From contig NZ_CAMLIX010000218.1 in assembly GCF_946479975.1 (NCBI RefSeq), forward strand, positions 1-8,085: a DNA stretch of 8,085 nt, given 5' to 3'. Below the pieces are notes generated by a model, which was given only the letters and a program-made list of their open reading frames with translations, searched no databases and had not been told where the DNA came from. Below, in pieces: positions 160 to 8,085 of this stretch. The DNA comes from an uncultured Flavobacterium sp. (lineage in GTDB: Bacteria > Bacteroidota > Bacteroidia > Flavobacteriales > Flavobacteriaceae). Position numbers and translations under genes: made by a program. Positions within the stretch are counted from its first letter, which is position 1, and each line of letters begins with the position of its first letter.

Positions 160-675
160 TCAAAAGTCTTCGCCAAATTCATCTCTAAAACCTTTTCCAG
201 ATTTGATCAAAGCAATACGCGGACTTTTGACAAATTCTATAAGACCGTAGTTTTTTAGAGATTCGGTTAAAGTATCAAGTTCTATTTCTTGCGCTGTCAC
301 TTCAAAAACCGTATACTCTCGTTCCAAAGATTTAAATTGCGCGTTATATTTTTTCATTAAATCCTTAACCTTTTCTGTTATAATCATTTCTGTCGGAAGT
401 TTGTATAAAGCAGTCTGCGTGTACACAATTTCCTGATTGGAATTGTAATAACATTTATAAACATCAATAACTTTCTCCATCTGTAAAGCTAAGTTTCGTA
501 CTGTTTCTGCCGTTTCGGTAACCACAATAGTAAATCTGTACATACCGCTAATTTCACAAGTAGAAATATTGAAACTCTCAAAACTAATTTTTCTTCGTGA
601 AAAAATTACGGCTGTTTTATTGATAAGTCCCATTTGATCTTCGGTGTAAAACGTTAAAGTGAATTGCTCTTTCAT
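160..675 (-). CDS. ilvN: Acetolactate synthase small (regulatory) subunit
   Basis: This 171-residue protein has the two-part layout of IlvN/IlvH: an N-terminal ACT domain (about residues 4-75, with the T-E-D-Q-M-G turn at 11-16 and R-R-K-I-S-F-E-S at 27-34) and a C-terminal domain (about 85-160). IlvN binds the catalytic subunit IlvB, stimulates it and confers feedback inhibition by branched-chain amino acids at the first common step of isoleucine and valine synthesis. Aligning G16 with E. coli IlvH G14 puts D13 and S31 where E. coli has N11 and N29, residues linked to valine binding; this alignment was made by eye. The gene stands alone: no ilvB, ilvD or ilvC is adjacent, and the opposing kinase gene follows. 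It is preceded by two Ile-rich leader ORFs with terminators, which supports both the annotation and attenuation control. It could be a second paralogue beside a standard ilv operon elsewhere. Confidence 0.88.
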   Translation of the reverse strand: MKEQFTLTFYTEDQMGLINKTAVIFSRRKISFESFNISTCEISGMYRFTIVVTETAETVRNLALQMEKVIDVYKCYYNSNQEIVYTQTALYKLPTEMIITEKVKDLMKKYNAQFKSLEREYTVFEVTAQEIELDTLTESLKNYGLIEFVKSPRIALIKSGKGFRDEFGEDF

Positions 676-742: not shown

Positions 743-778
743 AAAAAAAAACCTTTCTCAGTTAAATGAGAAAGGTTT
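743..778 (-). terminator. Attenuator terminator 2 of the ilvN leader
   Basis: A perfect 12-bp inverted repeat (749-760 with 767-778, 6-base loop) is followed on the minus strand by nine T. It lies between leader ORF 2 and ilvN, whose ATG is about 68 bases downstream. It is intrinsic and its sequence can also form a competing antiterminator (see 793-804). Terminated transcripts would contain no ilvN. Confidence 0.9.
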
Positions 779-792
779 CTATTATGCAATAC

Positions 793-804
793 AATCCTGA
801 CTCA
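793..804 (-). promoter_or_regulatory. Antiterminator strand of attenuator 2, overlapping the leader stop
   Basis: Minus-strand TGAGTCAGGATT imitates the right arm of terminator 2 (TGAGAAAGGTTT), matching at 9 of 12 positions. It can therefore pair with the left arm and block termination. Its first three bases are the stop codon of leader 2, so a ribosome finishing the leader would cover it. It also overlaps a small protecting hairpin, TTCATC (818-813) with GATGAG (806-801), whose left side includes the end of the last Ile codon. Together these give the 1:2, 2:3 and 3:4 pairings of a classic amino-acid attenuator. The pairings were found by eye and not folded. Confidence 0.72.
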
Positions 805-858
805 TCGTGGGAGATGAATAATAATTGTGCTAATAATAATTGCTATTGAATGCTTCAT
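802..858 (-). CDS. Ile-rich leader peptide 2 of the ilvN attenuator
   Basis: The 18-residue ORF reads MKHSIAIIISTIIIHLPR. Seven of its residues are isoleucine (one ATA, six ATT, with two runs of three), and there is one Leu codon. It starts 8 bases after the T-tract of terminator 1 and ends just before the antiterminator and terminator of attenuator 2. A ribosome short of charged isoleucyl-tRNA would stall in the ATT runs. It has no valine codon, so the signal appears to be isoleucine, perhaps with leucine. The peptide itself probably has no function; its translation is the sensor. Its size, codon bias and placement before two competing hairpins argue against chance. Confidence 0.82.
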   Translation of the reverse strand: MKHSIAIIISTIIIHLPR

Positions 859-866
859 TTTATTTC

Positions 867-897
867 AAAAAAAAACCTCCCGATAAAGGAGGTTTTT
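867..897 (-). terminator. Attenuator terminator 1 of the ilvN leader
   Basis: A 10-bp perfect stem (AAAAACCTCC at 897-888 with GGAGGTTTTT at 880-871, 7-base loop) runs into nine T on the minus strand. It sits between leader ORF 1 and leader ORF 2. No plus-strand gene ends nearby that would need it, so it belongs to the minus-strand leader. Confidence 0.88.
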
Positions 898-924
898 AAA
901 AATTGTACTGTTATACTTTTATAT

Positions 925-935
925 AAAATCCCCTT
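925..935 (-). promoter_or_regulatory. Antiterminator strand of attenuator 1
   Basis: Minus-strand AAGGGGATTTT lies 4 bases after the stop codon of leader 1. It can pair with the left arm of terminator 1 (AAAACCTCCTT side) with one mismatch and one G-U pair. A ribosome at the leader stop would cover it and let the terminator form. A ribosome stalled on upstream Ile codons would leave it free. It could also pair weakly with TCCCT inside the leader, a possible protecting stem. Confidence 0.65.
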
Positions 936-939
936 ACTA

Positions 940-993
940 CTACCAGTCGATAATAATATTGCTAATAATTAGGGAAATAATTTGGTTTCTCAT
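940..993 (-). CDS. Ile-rich leader peptide 1 of the ilvN attenuator
   Basis: The 17-residue ORF reads MRNQIISLIISNIIIDW and ends in TAG, followed by in-phase TAG and TAA. Seven residues are isoleucine (six ATT, one ATC), in runs of two, two and three, plus one Leu codon (CTA) and no Val. It begins about 18 bases after a TATATTTG -7 motif, fitting a short untranslated leader, and is followed by an antiterminator and terminator. It shares the core pattern ATTATTAGCA then ATTATTAT with leader 2, which suggests that the two attenuators arose by tandem duplication. Stalling at these codons would allow read-through into the second attenuator. Confidence 0.82.
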   Translation of the reverse strand: MRNQIISLIISNIIIDW

Positions 994-1011
994 TTTTGTC
1001 TTTGTTGAGCA

Positions 1012-1019
1012 CAAATATA
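1012..1019 (-). promoter_or_regulatory. Probable -7 promoter element for the ilvN leader transcript
   Basis: Minus-strand TATATTTG is an exact match to the Bacteroidota -7 consensus TAnnTTTG, and transcription from it would begin just before leader 1. A convincing -33 TTTG at the usual distance is missing; the nearest TTG is 14 bases upstream, which is too close. Confidence 0.55.
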
Positions 1020-6928: not shown

Positions 6929-8085
6929 TTAATTGTATAAGTTAGGTTCACGCTGCCAAAAACGGTGCATTGTCATAGCCGTGATAAATTCTTGAGCAAA
7001 AGAATCTGTAGCGATTTCGCTAGTTACAATTACGCCTGGATCATCATTTGTAATTTTACCTGCAAAAGGAGCAGCGCTGATAATTTCCGAAGCTTCTCCA
7101 TCGGCACCAATAACTTTACAGTGTTTATAAGCGTCATTTAAATATTCAAGTGCATCTTCATTTTCTGCCAATGCATTTAATCCTAATCCGTGTGGTACGT
7201 AAACAGCATCAAACAATACAGATGAAGCAGTTAAGAAACTAAACTCTGCCGCAATAGCGCCATCGCTGTCTGTTACTACAGAGCCTAAATGCGGTGCTAC
7301 CACACAGCCTTTTGCACCTTCTTTTTTAAGTGCATTTTTCATATTCATCACAGAAGCTTCAGAAACGCCGTCTGTTACCAGAATCGCAACTTTTCTAGAT
7401 TCGATTGTAGGTGAATTTGTTGGATTTTTAATCATGCTTAAAGCTTGCGAAGATTCAACTGCTTGATTTACAGTTTGTGGTTCTTGAGTTCCAGCTTCTT
7501 CTGTTTCTGGAGAAACGCCTTTGTTGATTGGTTTTTCTAAAACTGGAGGAACAGTTGCACCAAGACCTAATGCTACTTTTTCTGCAAGTTCGGTATCTAC
7601 TTGAGATAATAATCCAAGCATTCTTACTCGAATTGCTGTCGTTTCTACTTTTCCAAGTTCAAATCGAAGCGCTTTTACAATATGGCTTTTTTCTTCTGGT
7701 GTCTGGCTGTTAAAAAATAATTTTGCTTGTCCGAAATGATCTGTAAAACTTTCACTTCTGGCGCGCACTTTATGAGCATCTACACGTTCGTTAAAACTTG
7801 AAAAACCTCCTTCGGCAATTTTTGCCTGATACGGACAACCGCCACCCAAAGAATTTGGATGATAACTTACACGTCCTTTGTTGATTTCCTGACGCATATG
7901 TCCGTCACGTTGATTATTGTGAACAGGCGCAACGCTTCTGTTAATTGGAATTTCATGGAAATTAGGACTTCCTAATCGCGATAATTGGGTATCTGTATAA
8001 GAAAACAATCTTCCTTGTAAAAGCGGATCGTTTGTAAAATCGATTCCTGGCACAACATGACCTGGATGAAAAGCAATTTGTTCTG
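6929..8085 (-). CDS. katE: Large-subunit (clade 2, HPII-type) catalase, C-terminal part (partial)
   Basis: The reading frame runs past the right edge of the window; 384 residues are visible, and the GTG at 8053 is an internal Val codon, not the start. Catalase splits hydrogen peroxide into water and oxygen with haem. The visible part begins E-Q-I-A-F-H-P-G-H-V-V-P-G-I-D-F, followed by D-P-L-L-Q-G-R-L-F-S-Y, whose R-x-x-x-Y supplies the proximal haem Tyr. A His lies 23 residues before that Tyr, the spacing of the covalently linked His-Tyr pair in E. coli HPII. After a linker of about 50 residues comes the flavodoxin/DJ-1-like C-terminal domain (R-K-V-A-I-L-V-T-D-G-V onward, roughly the last 155 residues) that marks the large-subunit class. 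It leads the operon with the DUF892 and acidic-protein genes, at least within the window. Confidence 0.93.
   Translation of the reverse strand, partial: EQIAFHPGHVVPGIDFTNDPLLQGRLFSYTDTQLSRLGSPNFHEIPINRSVAPVHNNQRDGHMRQEINKGRVSYHPNSLGGGCPYQAKIAEGGFSSFNERVDAHKVRARSESFTDHFGQAKLFFNSQTPEEKSHIVKALRFELGKVETTAIRVRMLGLLSQVDTELAEKVALGLGATVPPVLEKPINKGVSPETEEAGTQEPQTVNQAVESSQALSMIKNPTNSPTIESRKVAILVTDGVSEASVMNMKNALKKEGAKGCVVAPHLGSVVTDSDGAIAAEFSFLTASSVLFDAVYVPHGLGLNALAENEDALEYLNDAYKHCKVIGADGEASEIISAAPFAGKITNDDPGVIVTSEIATDSFAQEFITAMTMHRFWQREPNLYN

Follow-up and report, generated by a model that had tools for sequence, protein, structure and literature searches.

Two isoleucine-codon attenuators, probably acting in series, precede a stand-alone AHAS small-subunit gene in Flavobacterium

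Introduction

Classical leader-peptide attenuators govern amino acid operons, for example trp, ilv and his. Attenuation of trp is recounted in an article on the Salmonella mgtCBR leader, whose tandem leader-ORF attenuators are termed singular by the authors in the passages cited here (PMC3641672). The leader ORFs mgtM and mgtP sense ATP and proline, the two attenuators are independent and additive and, as far as these passages go, they have no evident intrinsic terminators (PMC3641672). Similar sensors are also repeated in tandem T-boxes and riboswitches, which are expected, in the sections cited, to act as a digital, pseudo-cooperative system (PMC12452182). A second terminator in tandem has been noted before rimP in part of another article (PMC2965389), and a flavobacterial transcriptome contained clues of leader-peptide attenuation before amino-acid operons, ilv not being named in the portions of its main text used here (PMC9723704). 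Leader-peptide attenuators that respond to the same signal and stand in series were not found in the open-licence literature, supplements aside.

The DNA analyzed here, called the window, is a stretch of 8,085 nucleotides from an uncultured Flavobacterium sp. (contig NZ_CAMLIX010000218.1). An earlier note on the letters alone had proposed two independently translated isoleucine attenuators in series upstream of ilvN. This turned out to be the best reading. The ORFs, Ile runs, terminators and hairpins are kept in 28/28 leaders, and the leader very probably consists of two tandem ribosome-mediated transcription attenuators in series, each sensing the charging of tRNA-Ile. As in classical attenuators, a regulatory-codon ORF, a 1:2 hairpin, an antiterminator and an intrinsic terminator are followed by a pathway gene. 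Unlike them, two units (up to three in relatives) stand serially before one gene, Ile is the sole enriched codon and the hosts are Flavobacteriaceae. With mgtCBR, as described in the passages cited, the locus shares a single leader holding two leader ORFs and two attenuators (PMC3641672), but here an intrinsic terminator belongs to each unit, and both units would respond to Ile. The serial repetition of similar sensors is common to the T-box and riboswitch arrays, which, according to the same sections, sense tRNA or a ligand via RNA aptamers (PMC12452182), whereas here the sensor would be the translation of a leader ORF.

Layout of the leader

Every leader element named in the earlier note was located in the window, and the order given there was recovered: on the minus strand of 743-1019 a -7 motif, ORF1, an antiterminator strand, terminator T1, ORF2, a second antiterminator strand and terminator T2 are followed by ilvN, here called ilvN2 (Table 1). 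Both units recur in 28/28 leaders, and the Ile counts claimed for the two ORFs of the window, as well as the lack of Val in either, are correct. We take TATATTTG to be a Bacteroidota-type -7 motif. The form TAnnTTTG is found 5' of ORF1 in 26/28 leaders; in the exceptions, L001 and L059, ORF1 was called from an upstream ATG.

Table 1. Features of the tandem leader and of ilvN2 in the window
Feature	Position	Strand	Description or basis
-7 promoter motif TATATTTG	1012-1019 (element 1009..1019)	(-)	where the leader RNA probably starts
Leader ORF1 MRNQIISLIISNIIIDW	940-993	(-)	17 codons, 7/17 Ile, no Val
Unit 1 consensus 1:2 hairpin ATTATTATC / GGTAGTAGT	936..957	(-)	alignment of 28 leaders
Unit 1 antiterminator strand (segment 2), partner AAAAACCTCC of T1	914..935	(-)	mask folding
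Terminator T1 and T-run	867-897	(-)	conserved hairpin
Leader ORF2 MKHSIAIIISTIIIHLPR	802-858	(-)	18 codons, 7/18 Ile, no Val
Unit 2 1:2 hairpin TTCATC / GATGAG	801..818	(-)	alignment
Unit 2 antiterminator strand GATGAGTCAGGATT, partner CCTTTCTCA of T2	793..806	(-)	alignment and mask folding
Terminator T2 and T-run	743-778	(-)	alignment; consensus scan
ilvN2	160..675, start codon 673-675	(-)	171 aa, HMMs and predicted fold

Such a leader is hardly expected by chance. Among 2000 dinucleotide shuffles of the leader, 9 contained an ORF of 10-30 aa that starts with ATG and has at least 7 Ile, and 0 contained two such ORFs. The folding energy of region 740-1010 is -64.6 kcal/mol (z -5.6), a value as low as this being reached in 0/200 shuffles. 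The built-in consensus terminator scan called T2 and missed T1, probably because the T1 stem uses up part of the T-run; the T1 hairpin and its T-run are kept in all 28 aligned leaders. Both units match the Rfam family Phe_leader (RF01859), at 28.5 and 28.1 bits and thus under the gathering threshold of 55, and no family reached gathering level in the Rfam search of the window. A candidate match to STnc370 (Rfam) over T1 was rejected, being sub-threshold and on the opposite strand. A plasmid collection searched with the leader gave no match.

Conservation of the leader in relatives

The window, L002 from F. quisquiliarum and 26 copies from a search of the genus, among which is L001 from F. panacis, provided 28 leaders, each taken as the 480 nt 5' of ilvN2; genome-wide statements rest on the genomes of the relatives. 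ORF1, T1, ORF2 and T2 follow one another in this order in 28/28 leaders. Conservation of the leader ORFs and their Ile runs in relatives, by which the earlier note had proposed to judge its own reading, was found throughout: counted from the conserved start, ORF1 holds 6-10 and ORF2 6-10 Ile in 28/28, while there are no more than 0-2 Val in each ORF. Over all leaders Ile makes up 42.6% of 533 residues in ORF1 and 42.7% of 515 in ORF2; its share is 10.8% when ORFs are shuffled, and 6.5% among the codons of six window genes. The Ile codons of the leaders are ATT and ATC, ATA accounting for 12/447 compared to 17/115 in the six window genes, as if a single tRNA-Ile were read.

The reading frame has been respected as well. 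Within the first 51 nt, 24/26 gap runs in ORF1 are 3 nt long and 21/21 in ORF2 are 3 or 6 nt, whereas those beyond the ORFs, ragged ends included, are mostly of 1, 2 or 4 nt (runs being counted per sequence, not per event). Leader identity amounts to 80-86% versus 56-61% for the flanks (five pairs). Variability at codon positions 1, 2 and 3 is 0.183, 0.348 and 0.318 in ORF1 and 0.161, 0.245 and 0.274 in ORF2, third positions thus not being clearly the most variable, a comparison that says little in either direction. Comparison of the aligned sequences demonstrates selection on the ORF, the terminator and the 1:2 hairpin of each unit.

The ORF products might conceivably be small hydrophobic peptides with a function of their own, membrane or type I toxin-like, the terminators being incidental. 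Both ORF products are indeed short and hydrophobic, and small hydrophobic peptides occur in repeats elsewhere. Beyond the Ile runs, however, the peptides vary (MRNQIISLIISNIIIDW, MKNLINITIISSIIIIR, MKNIINIASIIITIIIR) while the surrounding RNA pairing is kept, and like arrays precede ilvA, ilvE and ilvD genes, which renders this explanation hardly credible. Regulation might instead lie with a single unit, the other serving as a vestigial or constitutive terminator by which basal expression is reduced. The call of T2 alone by the consensus scan would agree with this, as would the single-unit Ile leaders that seem to be enough before ilvA in relatives. Such a division of roles is improbable, if less so than the peptide explanation, because both units keep their Ile runs, frame, terminator and 1:2 hairpin in 28/28 leaders, with proteins down to 46% identity to that of the window. 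Two complete attenuators remain the preferred reading.

RNA structure and the predicted switch

In the proposed mechanism, a ribosome that reaches the stop codon would cover segment 2, leaving segment 3 to pair with segment 4, and the polymerase would stop. With no ribosome, segment 2 would be kept in the 1:2 hairpin and the 3:4 terminator would form. Under Ile starvation, a ribosome presumed to stall at the Ile codons would block segment 1, so that segment 2 would pair with segment 3 and read-through would result. Only transcripts passing both units would reach ilvN2, and the outputs of the two units would be expected to multiply.

The 1:2 and 3:4 pairings are well preserved. In unit 1, the 1:2 hairpin is a 9-pair helix with 92.9% of cells paired and 5 pairs double-changed, and T1 is a 10-pair helix with 96.4% of cells paired in 28 sequences and 2 pairs double-changed; together they keep 94.7% of pairs and show 7 double-changed pairs versus 1.6 in shuffles, slid versions reaching at most 61.2%. 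In unit 2, 92.6% of the cells of the 1:2 hairpin are paired, with compensatory GC/AU pairs in 5/27 distinct sequences and one pair unpaired in 9 of 27, and the 12-pair helix of T2 has 93.5% of cells paired and a compensatory AU/GC pair in 11/27. Taken together, these two helices are 93.2% paired, with 16 double-changed cells versus 5.6 in shuffles and slid versions at 58.6% or less. For 1:2 plus 3:4 of both units, the paired cells, the double-changed cells and the covariation score exceed all 500 shuffles, and the paired cells exceed every slid version. The count of further pair types does not rise above shuffles in either unit, and the count of double-changed pairs in unit 2 (2) equals the shuffled mean.

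The antiterminator (2:3) pairing is kept in 85.5% of cells in unit 1 and 98.8% in unit 2, and shows no covariation in either unit over the 28 leaders, in unit 2 because it is nearly invariant. The covariation that the earlier note proposed to look for in related leaders is hence present in part: 1:2 hairpins and terminators compensate, 2:3 pairings do not. In the minimum-energy fold of the window, the consensus hairpin gives way to a longer helix in which segment 2 of unit 1 pairs with TCCCTAATTATTA, which lies further 5'.

Folding with and without ribosome-masked segments, also proposed at the outset, revealed the expected switch in both units. Each folded transcript ended with segment 3, and the ribosome was represented, as a simplification, by a mask reaching 12 nt past the first nucleotide of its A-site codon. 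The mean upstream pairing of segment 3 in unit 1 is 0.74 with a stall at the last Ile codon, 0.24 with a ribosome at the stop, 0.27 for free RNA and 0.38 with a shuffled segment 2; the corresponding values are 0.61, 0.04, 0.16 and 0.29 in unit 2, and 0.78, 0.12, 0.28 and 0.55 in unit 1 of the window. Ile-stalled exceeds free RNA in 28/28 leaders for both units and exceeds the stop position in 27/28 (unit 1) and 28/28 (unit 2). Leaders beating 95% of shuffles number 23/28 in unit 1 and only 15/28 in unit 2. The definition of segment 3 was widened to take in CCTCC after a folding with a shorter segment, which lacks it and gives a weaker unit 1 effect (0.44 Ile-stalled, 0.25 stop, 0.13 free). An Ile-dependent switch is thus computed for each unit.

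The gene behind the leader and its genomic setting

The downstream gene of both units belongs to the Ile pathway and encodes an AHAS small subunit. Its product scores 66.7 bits against TIGR00119 (cut-off 56.9), 42.8 against PF10369 (23.2) and 30.2 against PF22629 (27), and 79.1 against PRK11895, which is under the cut-off of 119. The predicted fold (mean pLDDT 85.6) matches 2f1f, 2fgc and 6vz8; with 2f1f_A the E value is 6.6e-10 and TM is 0.58/0.60, so that the IlvH fold is recovered.

IlvN-like matches occur in 163/299 Flavobacterium genomes. The 46 matches better than E 1e-43 comprise 26 copies of ilvN2 in 24 genomes and 20 members of a 195-aa class, for 12 of which ilvB directly upstream was confirmed by tblastn. 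At least one additional IlvN match is present in all 24 ilvN2 genomes of the genus search and in G002; among the matches listed, it is 33-34% identical to that of the window. Exactly one IlvB above the family cut-off exists in 25/25 ilvN2 genomes, where it lies in the ilv operon, and an extra homologue below the cut-off was found in 7/25, away from ilvN2. The operon, fetched from 21 of these 25 genomes, has the order leuA, leuB, ilvD, ilvB, ilvN, ilvC; leuA, leuB, ilvD and ilvC were confirmed by HMM in L075, and other genes separate ilvD from ilvB in L092. Before ilvD a single unit with both Ile and Val (MQISIIITSVVVVNVIHTSASGML and variants) is present in 21/21 fetched operons, all from ilvN2 genomes. 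Searches by tblastn detected no IlvB, IlvD or IlvE in the 28 ilvN2 loci (6.0-8.1 kb, the window ending 159 bases past the gene). The window gene is therefore a stand-alone second AHAS small subunit, distinct from the ilvN of the operon.

The neighbours of ilvN2 vary by clade. An ilvA-like gene comes next downstream in 3/28 loci (L036, L061, L069; HMM-confirmed). In L001, L002 and L056, FecR/sigma-like genes, assigned by reading alone, lie beside ilvN2. The neighbour in the window, similar in position and length to a gene in L057, is divergent and GNAT-like; its Pfam score of 20.4 bits falls just short of the cut-off. Between this gene and the leader promoter, two direct repeats TCAAAATGATACG, 21 bp apart at 1070-1103, look like a candidate operator. 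At its other end (6929-8083), the window contains the last part of a long catalase whose C-terminal domain is DJ-1/PfpI-like; a DUF892 gene adjoins it. Genome G291 has three ilvN2 copies (L036, L037, L058), each with its own complete tandem leader.

In an ML tree of 71 proteins, a branch with support 98/89 parts the 28 ilvN2 products and 10 short IlvN-like proteins from operon IlvN, with the caveat that long branches meet there and that the bootstrap had not settled. The stand-alone L054 groups with operon IlvN, on a very long branch. The 21 operon IlvN reduce to 16 distinct sequences, each counted once, of which 4 are in the tree; the 195-aa IlvN L041, with a miscalled start, was excluded from alignment and residue counts, which therefore cover 19 of the 20.

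The valine site of IlvN2

The residues Asn11, Gly14 and Asn29 are all kept in 16/16 distinct leu-ilv operon IlvN, 9/19 of the 195-aa operon class and 3/4 others, and in 0/28 IlvN2. In the latter, Asn11 is Asp in 26, Gly14 is replaced in 14 and Asn29 is kept in 4. Gly14 is, in our numbering, presumably the conserved Gly of the E. coli AHAS III small subunit. In the sections cited, E. coli AHAS III became valine-insensitive when this Gly was changed, and the residue is not conserved in AHAS II (IlvG-IlvM), which is the isozyme that valine does not inhibit (PMC5727371). Residues 9, 11, 16, 29 and 35 of IlvH have been related to valine binding, and Asp is found at position 11 in C. glutamicum IlvN, whose AHAS is valine-sensitive according to the same part of the article (PMC11893703). 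The incomplete triad therefore points to an altered valine response of IlvN2, perhaps valine insensitivity, which the C. glutamicum case keeps from being proved.

If IlvN2 were valine-insensitive, it would resemble AHAS II in giving a form of AHAS that works despite valine, and in both the conserved Gly is not conserved. AHAS II, as described in the passages cited, has its own large subunit (PMC5727371), whereas IlvN2 has none adjoining and would have to share IlvB.

There is only slightly less than an even chance that IlvN2 is an additional AHAS small subunit, ordinary or in decay, that has no special valine response and whose array simply matches expression to the need for Ile. The gene evolves fast, the proteins being 46-80% identical to that of the window as compared to 97-100% identity to one reference for operon IlvN in 21 loci of ilvN2 genomes. 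Against an ordinary subunit speak the triad, which is incomplete in 28/28 with differing replacements, the leader kept in all 28 and the three copies paired with ilvA.

Arrays of units in Flavobacteriaceae

Arrays of one to three such units stand before ilvA, ilvN-ilvA and ilvE operons in Flavobacteriaceae. At E 0.01, the unit models R1 and R2 matched 89/299 and 116/299 genomes of the genus, respectively, a weak tail included; weak matches (E 0.001-0.01), with cross-hits and likely chance hits, were left unused. In a model search of the family, 29/299 genomes matched at E 0.001, and 11 of these 29 loci (L133-L161) are without any ilv gene sought by tblastn. Since loci were fetched by matching R1 or R2, unit counts are biased to arrays. 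The genes were named ilvE, ilvA, ilvD and ilvB by HMM in L105, L116 and L098 and by tblastn elsewhere.

Two units precede a shorter IlvN-like gene that has ilvA behind it in 10/10 loci (L096-L102, L108, L109, L111) and also in L054; the IlvN-like product of L098 has 146 aa and scores 45.2 bits, below the TIGR00119 cut-off of 56.9, and that of L108 has no ncbifam match at 1e-6. One unit precedes ilvA alone in 7/7 loci (L116-L119, L123-L125). In L118 (991-2307), the peptide of the single unit, MKNLINIIIVIIIIIIR, equals that of unit 1 in tandem ilvN-ilvA arrays (L099, L100), and it looks as if unit 2 and the small ilvN-like gene have been lost. Many ilvE-led operons have two or three units and others one, e.g., L120, L129 and L130. 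Triple arrays before ilvE operons were found in L105, L107, L133 and L134 and, judged by terminators, also in L106, where unit 1 has a terminator and no clean Ile ORF.

Units 2 and 3 of triple arrays are 84-95% identical, so units do duplicate. For the two units before ilvN2, the earlier note had taken a shared core to suggest duplication; they are 67% identical in the window and 64% on average over 28 leaders, whereas non-leader flanks put through the same alignment in five pairs reach 56-61%, and common descent is thus not demonstrated.

Two further observations were made in these loci. On the minus strand of L149 near 1500, an Ile/Thr-rich leader peptide (MNITNIISTIITSIP) and a terminator lie 30 nt before a 491-aa gene that by reading looks like an aspartokinase, with ilvA upstream. 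In L112 (2050-3722) and L130 (3312-4987), ilvD is split over two frames, perhaps by an assembly error or a true frameshift.

Significance

In these genomes the operon has one Ile+Val lock; the Ile-only double lock before ilvN2 contrasts with it and fits a product that is needed when Ile alone is short. The double lock suggests a tight response to Ile shortage, and it is plausible that tandem units sharpen the response to Ile. Serial attenuators for the same amino acid could steepen a leaky switch by multiplication, an effect that the sections cited have argued for tandem riboswitches and T-boxes (PMC12452182). The ilvA, ilvN2 and ilvE operons offer a natural series of 1, 2 and 3 units in which the influence of copy number can be tested directly.

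We consider it a fair question, with odds somewhat below even, whether, on Ile starvation, the array releases an alternative AHAS subunit that may be insensitive to valine. Besides the C. glutamicum case, two findings speak against this role: the 195-aa operon class, whose single IlvN has the full triad in only 9/19, and the extra IlvB homologue under the cut-off in 7/25 ilvN2 genomes. IlvN2 with its altered valine site would then join the IlvB of the cell, and Ile would be made when Ile, but not Val, is short. Starvation for Ile, for example when valine shuts the only AHAS, would open both attenuators, and Ile synthesis would resume without a second catalytic subunit. If IlvN2 is valine-insensitive, valine-induced Ile starvation would be bypassed by a swap of the control subunit and not by a second enzyme. 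More tentatively still, a valine-insensitive IlvN2 may replace IlvN on the shared IlvB, and Flavobacteriaceae may set the stringency with which each of their branched-chain amino acid genes is controlled by the number of units (1-3) and their codon mix.
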